Source of the DNA: an uncultured Rickettsiales bacterium
Lineage (GTDB): Bacteria; Pseudomonadota; Alphaproteobacteria; Rickettsiales; UBA1997
Assembly (NCBI GenBank): GCA_905478165.1
Contig: CAJQHK010000017.1
Span: forward strand, 1 to 59,949
DNA length: 59,949 nt
Direction of reading: 5' to 3'
Part shown: positions 44,298 to 57,363 of the stretch, piece by piece
Layout of the letters: every line of letters starts with the position of its first letter
Position numbering within the stretch: position 1 is the first letter of the stretch
Notes under the pieces: generated by a model
The model's database searches: none
Told to the model about the DNA's origin: nothing
What the model saw: the letters and a program-made list of their open reading frames with translations, nothing else
Program-made: the position numbers and the translations under genes

Positions 44298-44993
44298 CTA
44301 TTCTATTTTGCGAATAATTTTATTAAGAATGGAGATGGAAAAGTTATCTATTTGTATAGAAAAATGATCAATTCTTTTGTTTAGAATATTAAAGAATATT
44401 ACAGCTGGAATTGCAACGAACAGTCCCATAGCCGTAGCAAATAAAGCTTCAGCAATTCCTGGAGCAACAATTGCTAGACTAGTATTACCGGAATCTGCAA
44501 TATTTTGAAAACTATTCATAATTCCCCATACCGTACCAAAAAGACCTATGAAGGGAGCGTTAGAGCCTATTATAGCTAAGATATTTGTTCCATATTCTAA
44601 GTTTTTAACAATATTATTTTCAACTATTTCTATGGCGCCCTTAATTCGGTTTGTAATGGATTCCAGCTTATTGTCAGCATGTTCCGTGTCTTTGGATTTG
44701 CTCAGTTGCCACTCTTTTATGCTGGCAATAATTATTCTAGATAGAGGATTTTTATTATTTCCCTGGGCAAGGGTTAATATGTCGCTCAATGAGTTTTTAG
44801 ATTCAAATAGCAGAATAAATTTCCACATTAATATTTTTAAAATAGAAAATTTTATTAATTTAAAAAATATTATAGACCAAGAGACAAGAGACATTAACAA
44901 TAATAATGCCATAACTGACTTTACTATTATATCAGCATCAGAGATTAACTCAATAATTTGTGAATTATTTTCAAATATCATTGATTTATACAT
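44298..44993 (-). CDS. tolQ: TolQ/ExbB family proton channel protein
   Basis: 'ILAIIGSNAPFIGLFGTVWGIMNSFQNIADSGNTSLAIVAPGIAEALFATAMGLFVAIPAVIFFN'. Confidence 0.93.
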   Translation of the reverse strand: MYKSMIFENNSQIIELISDADIIVKSVMALLLLMSLVSWSIIFFKLIKFSILKILMWKFILLFESKNSLSDILTLAQGNNKNPLSRIIIASIKEWQLSKSKDTEHADNKLESITNRIKGAIEIVENNIVKNLEYGTNILAIIGSNAPFIGLFGTVWGIMNSFQNIADSGNTSLAIVAPGIAEALFATAMGLFVAIPAVIFFNILNKRIDHFSIQIDNFSISILNKIIRKIE

Positions 44994-45544
44994 TTTGTTT
45001 TATCCCAGCATTTTCCGGGGCCGCAATCGCATGATCTGGTAATTACTTGCGCGCAAACTGAGCTTCGCGTTACATTACAATTGTCGGCGCAACCATTTCT
45101 AAAATCTACCATTTTTCCTCCGTAATTTTCGCATTGATTAGCTACTTCCCCCTTTATCTTAACAGACAGATTATCTATAAAATTATAAAACTTATTATTC
45201 TCTTCGGGTTTAGTTGCTTTTAGTTTCTTTGTTGTAGTAATTTCCGTTTTATATGTTTTATATTCCTTGTTTTTAAGATTTTTAATTTCGATACATTCGT
45301 TATTTTGCCAACACTTACCCTCTCCGCAATCGCAATTATATTCTAAAATTTGATAACAAGGGGTGTTTTTATCAATTTTTTTACTACAATTATCGTAACA
45401 AGTATGGTTAAATATTCTCCATATTCCGCTTGATTCAGTGCAAAGGTTTTTGTTTCCTGTAGCAGATATTGAGTCGAGCGAGAATATAATAAGTATATAA
45501 AAAAATAATGAACTTAGGTTTATAGCAGCTTTTAACTTTAACAT
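44978..45544 (-). CDS. Secreted protein with two copies of an 8-cysteine module
   Basis: Start moved to the internal ATG at 45542-45544 (MLKLKAAINLSSLFFYILIIFSLDSISA signal-like). Two modules C-x13-C-x3-C-x(7,9)-C-x7-C-x-C-x4-C-x5-C. Confidence 0.7.
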   Translation of the reverse strand: MLKLKAAINLSSLFFYILIIFSLDSISATGNKNLCTESSGIWRIFNHTCYDNCSKKIDKNTPCYQILEYNCDCGEGKCWQNNECIEIKNLKNKEYKTYKTEITTTKKLKATKPEENNKFYNFIDNLSVKIKGEVANQCENYGGKMVDFRNGCADNCNVTRSSVCAQVITRSCDCGPGKCWDKTKCINQ

Positions 45545-45619
45545 TACACTTGTTAGGTAAATTTTTTTACTAAAATTAACCTGTCTAAATATGATGTTAA
45601 GGATGGGAGTCGGTATCAT

Positions 45620-53250: not shown

Positions 53251-53441
53251 ATTTTTTCTTGACTTTCTTAGGTGGCCGTAGATAATTTGAAGAATTAATA
53301 TTGGTTTGTGGCGCTTGTTAACTTTATCGATAAGTTTAGTTTTTACTGTTCAAGGTTTGTGGTTAAAACTAAAATTTATTAGGGGTTTTGCAGATGTTAC
53401 TCAATTTAAATATTTTCAAATAAATCAAAAGTAAAATAGCG

Positions 53442-54401
53442 ATGAAAAAGAACTATAAATTAGGTTTTTCTCTAATTGAAATCTCAGTTGTGGTATTAAT
53501 TATAGGGGTTTTAATTGCTGCAATTACTACAGGCACCGACCTTGTAAAAAAGTCTAAAGTAGCTTCTGCACGTAACTTATCTTCAAATTCCGCAATATAT
53601 GGGATGAGCGATCTTGTGTTATGGCTTGAATCTTCTTTACCAACAAGTTTTCCAGCTGAAGGTGAGGGTGAGAGCGTAAAATTGTGGTCAAATAACTCAC
53701 CTTTTTACAATATTGGCTCCGCTATTGCAGATGGCGATAATGAAACCCCTATGTATAAAAGATACGCTATTAATCACACTCCTTCTGTTAGGTTTTTTTG
53801 TGATGTAATAAATAATCTAGATGTATGTAAAAGATATTTAAACGTCCATAGTATCTCTAGTTTGTTGGAGGAAACTGATTTAACTATTTTTATTCTTGAA
53901 AACAGGGACGCCGGACATGGTGCTTTGGAAAGACGTATAATAAGCACATCTAATGGTGCCGATTCAATTAGTGGTCAGGGTTTAAACATTTATTATGGTA
54001 CAGATGATAAGTTGACAGTTAGTAACTCAGACGGCAATTCCGTCTCTTCTACTGACGTCACTCCTGGGCCATCTTTACATTATTTAACTTTGTTCAATGA
54101 TGATGATTTTATGGTTAATGGCAATACTATTTTGCGAAAAGGTTTTAATTATTATCACAACAAAAGACTTCCTGAGTCTGGCTCCATGCCAAGCGTTACT
54201 ACTGTTATAAAGAGTGATAGCGACGTCAGATTTGATACCAACTCTATGGGAAATATAATTAGGATTGGAGATTCTGTTAAATCCTATATTGGTAACCTTC
54301 CTGAAATAATAATTTTTAATAGAAAGTTGAGGCAAAAAGAAATGATAGATATTTTCAATTATTTTGAAGCAAAATATAATATAGTTTTAAGTGACTCTTA
54401 A
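53442..54401 (+). CDS. Prepilin-like protein fused to putative LamG/ConA-like domain (paralogue 1)
   Basis: Type IV prepilin N-terminus 'MKKNYKLGFSLIEISVVVLIIGVLIAAI'. C-terminal 'YIGNLPEIIIFNRKLRQKEMIDIFNYFEAKYNI' resembles the terminal strand/helix of LamG-like lectin domains. Confidence 0.8.
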   Translation: MKKNYKLGFSLIEISVVVLIIGVLIAAITTGTDLVKKSKVASARNLSSNSAIYGMSDLVLWLESSLPTSFPAEGEGESVKLWSNNSPFYNIGSAIADGDNETPMYKRYAINHTPSVRFFCDVINNLDVCKRYLNVHSISSLLEETDLTIFILENRDAGHGALERRIISTSNGADSISGQGLNIYYGTDDKLTVSNSDGNSVSSTDVTPGPSLHYLTLFNDDDFMVNGNTILRKGFNYYHNKRLPESGSMPSVTTVIKSDSDVRFDTNSMGNIIRIGDSVKSYIGNLPEIIIFNRKLRQKEMIDIFNYFEAKYNIVLSDS

Positions 54402-54454
54402 TACTAATCGTAGTAAGTCAATACATCTTAATTTAATATCAACATTTTAAAATT

Positions 54455-55318
54455 ATGAAAAATAATTTCAGGTTAGGTTTTTCTCTTTTGGAGGTTTCAG
54501 TTGTTTTACTAATTATTGGCATTTTATTGGCCTCCGTTAGTGCTGGCAAGAGCATGATTAGAACTTCTAAAATAACTTCTTCTCAATCCTTGACTGCTAG
54601 TTCTCCAGTTTCTGCTGTAGAGGGTTTAGCCATTTGGTTAGAACCGGTATCGGTTGCCAGTTTATCACCAGATGACACTTACGATTCTCAAGGTATTGGT
54701 GGTGGCTGGCAAAATCTGAGTAATTATTTTGCGCCGACTAATTTTGACGTTACCGGCCCTGCTTATAATGAGTCTTCGATTAATGGATTACCTTCTGTTA
54801 CTTTTGATAGTAACGATATTGTTGATATTCAATCTTCCTTACAACATATAACTGGAACGAATTTTTCAATATTTATTGTTGAAGAGAGAAACAGTGATAC
54901 TGGAATTTTAATTAATTCTGACCATATGGTTGCCAAATATGCTACTAATTATTTTAAAATAGAAAAAGATGGTGTTCCGGTGGTTAATGTTGTTGATGTT
55001 CCTACTGGTCCGGCTATTAATTACATCTCTTTTGCTTCCTCTGCGACAGGATCCGCTCCTAAGGGTCTTACATATTATAGGAATAAAGGGGTGTTTTTTA
55101 ATTCTTCTAATGCTCAAGATATAACCGCGACCGACCTTAGTGCTGATTATGAAGGTATTTCTTCCTCAAATTATGCTACATTAGGAAGTGTTAGTGGAGG
55201 TTTTGTGGGAGACATTTCTGAGTTAATAGTATATAATAATTCCTTAACTATAGTTGAGCTTAATGAGATTCTTAATTATTTAAGTTCAAAATATAGAATA
55301 AATCTTGAAAGAGAGTAA
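54455..55318 (+). CDS. Prepilin-like protein fused to putative LamG/ConA-like domain (paralogue 2)
   Basis: 'MKNNFRLGFSLLEVSVVLLIIGILLASV' prepilin signal; 'FVGDISELIVYNNSLTIVELNEILNYLSSKYRI' C-terminus; co-linear with paralogue 1. Confidence 0.8.
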   Translation: MKNNFRLGFSLLEVSVVLLIIGILLASVSAGKSMIRTSKITSSQSLTASSPVSAVEGLAIWLEPVSVASLSPDDTYDSQGIGGGWQNLSNYFAPTNFDVTGPAYNESSINGLPSVTFDSNDIVDIQSSLQHITGTNFSIFIVEERNSDTGILINSDHMVAKYATNYFKIEKDGVPVVNVVDVPTGPAINYISFASSATGSAPKGLTYYRNKGVFFNSSNAQDITATDLSADYEGISSSNYATLGSVSGGFVGDISELIVYNNSLTIVELNEILNYLSSKYRINLERE

Positions 55319-56703: not shown

Positions 56704-57363
56704 GTGTCAATTTAAGCTAATTTAAAATAAGCGTCAGCTTATTTTAACTTAGTAAATTATTATTAATTTAAATTGACACTTTTATGACTCAAAAAATCAA
56801 TTATCAGATTCTTTCAAACGCTCTGCAATAGAAAAAATCTACCAAGGAAAGCCTTTAGCCGGGAAAAATAGCGTCTTTAGCGACATGATTAAAGAGATCC
56901 TTGAAGCAGCTTTAAGTGAAGAGTTAAGTCAACATTTAGATCAAGAGAAGAAAGGATCTGAGCAGGAGTTTAGTAATGATTTTGATAATCGTCGCAATAG
57001 CTACAATTCCAAAACTCTAAAAACTAGAGAATCAGCTTTTACCCTTGATGCTCCTCGTGATAGAAATGGCTTTTTTGAGTCAGAAATTATCAGAAAAGGT
57101 CAAACGGTTTTAACAGACGAGTTGGATAGTAAGATAATTGCTCTTTATGGTCTTGGAATGGGCTATCGAGACATCAACTCTCATATGGAAAAAATTTATG
57201 GAATAGAAATTTCTAAATCTAGTATTGCTGCCATCACAGATAAAATATTATCAAAAATAAAATAATGGCAAAATAGACCCTTAGATGAGATTTGTCCAAT
57301 AATATTTCTTGATGCTATACATTTTAAATGTAGCGAGAACAATGCTGTTGTAAGTAAAGCGTT
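56704..57363 (+). pseudogene. Truncated IS256-family (mutator-type) transposase remnant with nested palindromic left end
   Basis: 'MIKEILEAALSEELSQHLDQEKK...NRRNSYNSKTLKTRESAFTLDAPRDRNGFFESEIIRKGQTVLTDELDSKIIALYGLGMGYRDINSHMEKIYGIEISKSSIAAITDKI', then after a stop 'WQNRPLDEICPIIFLDAIHFKC'. Remaining C-terminal catalytic part is missing. Confidence 0.9.

Follow-up and report, generated by a model that had tools for sequence, protein, structure and literature searches.

The pilin PilC of the oral streptococcus Streptococcus sanguinis has proven to be a lectin; sialylated glycans and heparin probes are bound by its ConA-like module (PMC9934059; PDB 7oa7, 7oa8). Furthermore, pilins combining IPR012902 with PF13385 figure among the 15 commonest modular pilin architectures of a published survey which predicts carbohydrate binding for the PF13385 pilins without testing it (PMC8179133). 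Type IV pilus genes in Rickettsiales, together with a proposed role in attachment, have also been published (PMC9352585, PMC10847448); a LamG or lectin pilin is absent from the main texts of both papers, whose supplements may differ, and a literature search for LamG with pilins in Rickettsiales found nothing.

In the present study we have analysed a tandem pair of prepilin genes in a Rickettsiales MAG of 1.2 Mb (31 contigs, 97% complete). The window is the whole stretch of 59,949 nucleotides that was analysed. The pair fits the modular pilins with a ConA/LamG module, carrying a prepilin module and a predicted ConA-like fold in one chain, and its domain order, from the prepilin motif to a Laminin_G_3/ConA-like domain, is that of the IPR012902 and PF13385 class. 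As pilins carrying a PF13385 module have already been published as a class, the pair is not a new system, and an earlier note on this DNA, which had seen in the unusual architecture the strongest candidate for an undescribed surface system in the window, put the case too strongly in view of that listing (PMC8179133) and of the proven lectin pilin (PMC9934059). In PilC a class III prepilin leader is likewise combined with a ConA-like lectin module at the C terminus of the same chain, and the model of the first prepilin (P0001) matches 7oa8. However, the lectin module of PilC is preceded by a short retained pilin moiety and by an Ig-like module, whereas the Rickettsiales pair has neither; PilC is encoded by a single gene, within the pil locus of a monoderm, whereas the Rickettsiales genes are tandem or multi-copy, away from the machinery and in a diderm; and the sequence similarity of PilC to the family profile is not significant (E 0.85). 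The pair shares an architecture class with PilC and is not orthologous to it.

The gene pair and its predicted heads

The features of the pair are collected in Table 1. The two tandem ORFs with a type IV prepilin leader that the earlier note had described were found in their places, and both proteins exceed the cut-offs for N_methyl (PF07963, 22.7 and 23.4 bits against a Pfam cut-off of 21.2) and for TIGR02532 (22.2 and 24.5 bits against an NCBIfam cut-off of 16.3). In each of them a basic leader of eight residues with a terminal Gly is followed by Phe at +1, Glu at +5 and about 20 hydrophobic residues, with a mean hydropathy of 2.4-2.6 across the first 21 mature residues, and an ectodomain of ~230-260 aa is fused to this class III leader. 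The motifs from which a shared co-linear ectodomain had been claimed are present in the translations, and P0001 and P0002 are homologous end to end by BLASTP (27% identity, 109 bits, E 2e-32), which bears out both that claim and the claimed duplication and divergence.

Table 1. Positions in the window of the features of the prepilin gene pair.
Feature	Positions	Strand	Evidence
Possible promoter TTGACT-16-GATAAT, upstream of the pair	53259..53286	+	consensus match only, weak
Modular prepilin 1 (P0001), 319 aa: class III leader, long N-terminal helix, LamG/ConA-like head	53442..54401	+	ORF, N_methyl, AF2, Foldseek
Prepilin 1 leader peptide MKKNYKLG, predicted prepilin peptidase cleavage after Gly8	53442..53465	+	sequence, N_methyl
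Prepilin 1 hydrophobic alpha-1 stalk, mature residues 1-40, model helix 11-48	53466..53585	+	AF2, hydropathy 2.64 (mature 1-21), Glu +5
Prepilin 1 LamG/ConA-like head, residues ~58-319	53613..54398	+	profile search, AF2, Laminin_G_3 in relatives, Foldseek
Modular prepilin 2 (P0002), 287 aa: architecture as prepilin 1, diverged paralogue	54455..55318	+	ORF, N_methyl, AF2, Foldseek, BLASTP
Prepilin 2 leader peptide MKNNFRLG	54455..54478	+	sequence, N_methyl
Prepilin 2 hydrophobic alpha-1 stalk, model helix 11-48	54479..54598	+	AF2, hydropathy
Prepilin 2 LamG/ConA-like head, residues ~58-287	54626..55315	+	AF2, Foldseek

The pair is flanked by rodA upstream and mnmE downstream, and the order rodA-pilin1-pilin2-mnmE is kept in a second genome of the same genus (JAHXBT010000038.1, 'Rickettsiales bacterium isolate C-137'). 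Since the pair and its flanks are conserved there, with 60-65% protein identity between orthologues, both genes have been kept under selection; the paralogues are only 27-28% identical, and therefore the duplication predates the genus and both copies were retained. The promoter-like motif also lies upstream of the pair in genome G011 and is not evident in G012. The base composition of the pair is that of the neighbouring genes. Elsewhere in the window, a transposase fragment of the Mutator family (PF00872, profile positions 30-148 of 379) lies at 56885-57265, downstream of mnmE, and a cysteine-rich, secreted-looking protein of 213 aa, with an internal repeat around 'CDCGxGKCW' and no Pfam match, is encoded at 44978-45619.

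Models of both prepilins were built by AlphaFold2 with 81 family members. The P0001 model (pLDDT 84.6, pTM 0.85) places after the helix a beta jelly-roll and a closing C-terminal helix, and the P0002 model (pLDDT 87.7, pTM 0.85) has the same order of elements; in both, the long helix passes directly into the concanavalin A/LamG jelly-roll. A Foldseek search of the PDB gave cell-binding domains of the neurotoxin family, for both proteins the trypanosomal trans-sialidase and the CBM40 of NanA and of R. gnavus (TMt 0.48-0.58 for the CBM40 structures), and for P0001 only the S. sanguinis minor pilin PilC (7oa8, rank 6, E 1.6e-7). TM-scores to solved lectins are moderate, at 0.35-0.50 by query length. 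Among predicted viral proteins (BFVD) the top matches include named members of the ConA-like lectin/glucanase superfamily, with E down to 1e-12 and TM up to 0.58/0.79. The jelly-roll foreseen for the C-terminal part is thus predicted confidently in both models and accompanied by lectin matches.

The family profile also reaches CBM40 by sequence (8e-5 to 7e-4; 1sli 8.5e-5, 6er2-4 2e-4) and, at E about 1e-4, an S-layer protein chain. Among the 81 relatives, N_methyl is matched by 78, Laminin_G_3 (PF13385) by 57 (best 1e-11) and CBM40 (PF02973) by only 2. The heads of P0001 and P0002 have no Laminin_G_3 match above Pfam detection, and for this reason the earlier note could only guess their identity.

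Assembly machinery and other prepilins of the genome

The earlier note had remarked that no T2SS or T4P genes lie nearby, which is true of the window, but the machinery is encoded elsewhere in the genome: a prepilin peptidase, an assembly ATPase, a platform protein and a secretin are spread over four other contigs. Neither of the two outcomes named in the earlier note as refuting its reading, a C-terminal part predicted to lack a jelly-roll and a genome with no prepilin peptidase or pilus/T2SS assembly ATPase, was therefore obtained. The single peptidase (264 aa, contig C6) carries A24_N and Peptidase_A24 domains. The single PilB/GspE-type ATPase (C4) carries T2SSE and MshEN domains (1e-119) and scores slightly better with PilB than with GspE. 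The one PilC/GspF platform protein (T2SSF, C29) has its best score with GspF, 266.7 bits and below the cut-off, and the best curated match of the one secretin (C31) is MshL, with 188 bits against 124 for GspD. Besides a VirB11-like protein (C12), which is the only other PF00437 match, a search with this model found no second PilB/PilT-type ATPase in the genome; no PF05137 match for PilN was found either, with a model that matches only 2 of 14 control genomes. Because PilN and the second ATPase were not found, the machine could be T2SS-like and not a retractile pilus. It resembles an MSHA-type/T4a system in its PilB/MshE-like ATPase with MshEN, T2SSF platform, MshL-like secretin and A24 peptidase, but differs in that the scores lie below curated equivalog cut-offs, the genes are on four contigs, and PilN and PilT were not found.

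The Gsp pseudopilin cut-offs were reached by none of the prepilins scanned. A prepilin of 294 aa without a LamG head (C23) is probably the likeliest major pilin; C1 encodes a prepilin of 135 aa. On C9 (L011:3-2491) two long prepilin-like genes overlap, one of at least 475 aa that is cut by the contig end and carries N_methyl (22 bits), the other of 354 aa with a prepilin motif recognised by eye. Their immediate neighbours are genes resembling pgpA (by eye), VirB6 (1284 aa) and VirB4, and the larger prepilin-like protein has terminal repeats resembling the phage tail-fibre 'GIGNTSPTSKLVLEG'. On C6 (L010:5037-7436) a secreted-looking protein of 799 aa starts 1 bp past the prepilin peptidase gene; it has an atrophied bacterial Ig domain (aBig_2) and, by eye, a PAN/apple-like C-terminus.

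Distribution and variation in the family

Of the 61 genomes in the family to which the window's genome belongs (f1), 53 gave matches to P0001; a single genome had as many as 35, and some of the matches concern only the shared helix. Paralogue counts rest on profile searches, a full-length fusion being a match from profile position 6 or lower to 288 or higher; in the eight genomes counted there are two such fusions in the window's genome, two in G011, three in G013 and 9-14 in each of the five others. The secretin and a family match at E<=1e-10 are both present in 49 of the 61 f1 genomes and both missing from 10, while the match occurs alone in two genomes that are only 57-60% complete and the secretin alone in none. 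The Fisher test of this association gives 7e-10, a value that overstates the joint absence because only few independent losses underlie the 10 double-negative genomes, and part of the strength of the family matches comes from the shared prepilin helix. The genomes without both are all seven of genus g4 (G014-G020), both of g7 and one of g9 (G033). The platform protein shows the same pattern as the secretin, with more gaps in incomplete f1 genomes. Strong matches to the prepilin family and the secretin were lost together within f1. The prepilin peptidase occurs also in genomes without the secretin, and genus g4 has retained it despite lacking the secretin, the platform protein and any strong pilin match.

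Across Rickettsiales, matches with E<1e-50 occur only in f1 among the matches listed, and near-full-length fusions outside f1 were found only in f13 (G165, G166) among the families looked at. An order-wide prepilin-LamG fusion was rejected: in the other families looked at, the strong matches are mostly LamG stretches, often inside large frames (from several hundred up to 2,800 aa), along with separate prepilins that match only about profile positions 1-50. In 398 Pseudomonadota genomes no full-length match but the window's own was found among the matches listed, by a profile that independently evolved fusions would escape. Within genus g5, G023 and G024 (e.g. L185, L186) have 34-41 profile matches per genome, most to the helix only and in frames of ~250-300 aa with ordinary-type heads ('YTFYSLKNRLPGN'), together with a few short LamG-headed prepilins (L172, L173). 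At L080, L067, L087 and L119 the prepilin-LamG proteins are greatly extended at the C terminus, to 666-1112 aa in total, and contain cysteine-rich repeats; L080 has a Gly_rich_2 domain in addition.

Conservation, expressed as mean consensus frequency, is high in the stalk (0.69) and in the C-terminal frame of the head (0.60) and low in two stretches in the middle of the ectodomain (0.33 and 0.21); such a pattern is expected if a constant part serves assembly while the face used for binding has diversified. Among 26 tandem pairs examined, three from other genomes have stalks near-identical at synonymous sites and heads that are not (fourfold sites 26/27 vs 45/77, 18/20 vs 8/20 and 16/20 vs 20/52; one-sided p 9e-5, 1e-3 and 2e-3), and in some arrays the identity between copies reaches upstream of the start codon. 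The array of a relative from another genus (L061:5974-11124, JAJTCH010000006.1) contains complete prepilin-LamG genes and one stalk-less head, as well as two heads out of frame with stalks of different length and joined at the same head position. These two heads share ~180 bp at 97-100% identity, which then falls abruptly to 53-73%. Such mosaic tracts, as read from the sequence, are the mark of recombination among copies, and the broken copies may be genes that have decayed through unequal exchange, or they may serve as a reservoir of silent heads.

In Neisseria, pilE/pilS brings about antigenic variation of the pilin. The relative's array is similar in its conserved stalk, variable head, tandem and partly incomplete copies and mosaic identity blocks, but the Rickettsiales arrays have no known expression locus or demonstrated switching, and the window's genome, with two full-length copies only, has neither silent partial copies nor a mosaic array. 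The window pair itself gave no sign of stalk homogenisation (fourfold sites 7/12 vs 7/17, p 0.30) and no recombination signal. It is conceivable, if doubtful, that this Rickettsiales family has a constant-stalk, variable-head receptor system, in which arrays would swap head segments by recombination and change the glycans recognised. The earlier note could not have seen that the genes have expanded throughout the family, that they were lost jointly with the machinery and that some arrays are mosaic.

Proposed mechanism and its alternatives

We propose that both proteins belong to the modular type IV pilins and that a type IV pilus is likely to display their lectin-type heads for attachment. 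Once expressed, both prepilins would be cleaved after Gly8 by the prepilin peptidase, and the freed helix with Glu5 would enter, presumably in a minor-pilin position, a filament built by the PilB-type ATPase with the PilC/GspF platform and extruded through the MshL-like secretin. The ConA/LamG-like jelly-roll would replace the usual alpha-beta globule of pilins, so that the filament would show putative lectin heads, the ligands of which may be glycans of eukaryotic cells or of other biotic surfaces. The duplication is old and the heads differ, probably with two ligand specificities. The invariant Glu5 and general knowledge of pilins argue that the pair packs under a neighbouring subunit and does not form a GspK-like cap. 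By means of its lectin-type heads the pilus probably grips other cells.

The same explanation with another ligand, in which the heads would recognise a polysaccharide of the environment or of bacteria (biofilm matrix, algal mucilage, other bacteria) and not a eukaryotic host receptor, is quite possible without being the one that we favour: several record names suggest, as far as names can be trusted, lake or other aquatic samples, but Rickettsiales are known for host association (PMC9352585, PMC10847448). The genome itself also speaks against such a ligand, as it carries VirB4/VirB6/VirB11-like type IV secretion genes. Folds of the LamG type serve diverse functions and can bind proteins or be structural, which, together with the moderate TM-scores and the position of both heads below the Laminin_G_3 threshold in Pfam, would agree with a head that binds protein or acts as a bulky structural module of the pilin with no lectin activity. 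We regard this as rather unlikely, however, given that the solved structures closest to the heads, whether by profile or by fold, are for the most part carbohydrate-binding modules and the lectin pilin PilC, and that no part of the family varies more than the middle of the head.

The secretin, nearer to MshL than to GspD, the ATPase, slightly nearer to PilB than to GspE, and the scores of all scanned prepilins below the Gsp pseudopilin cut-offs make it improbable that the pair are pseudopilins of a T2SS-like machine, with the LamG head in a short periplasmic pseudopilus or serving as a substrate adaptor; many variable-headed paralogues would moreover be unusual for a secretion pseudopilus. The points that agree with such a machine are the single assembly ATPase without a PilT-type match, the best score of the platform protein with GspF and the failure to find PilN with a model that misses most controls. 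The transposase fragment 1.6 kb downstream and the many phage proteins among the structural neighbours (BFVD) could suggest recently acquired mobile or phage-derived cargo without a stable role, but this is scarcely credible and largely refuted by conservation: the synteny is kept at 60-65% identity in the other genome of the genus, the base composition is native, and there were 0 matches in 50,697 phage and 72,556 plasmid records, so that a mobile or phage origin was rejected.

The paralogue expansion and mosaic arrays of the Rickettsiales family are not described in the available portion of the modular-pilin survey (PMC8179133), and a multi-copy, recombining spread of lectin-headed pilins in this family was not found in the literature searched. 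For the question of how environmental and early-diverging Rickettsiales attach to their hosts, the pilins with lectin-type heads represent concrete molecules for tests with protist glycans. The family widens the idea of the modular pilin from a few examples to a large lineage-specific repertoire.
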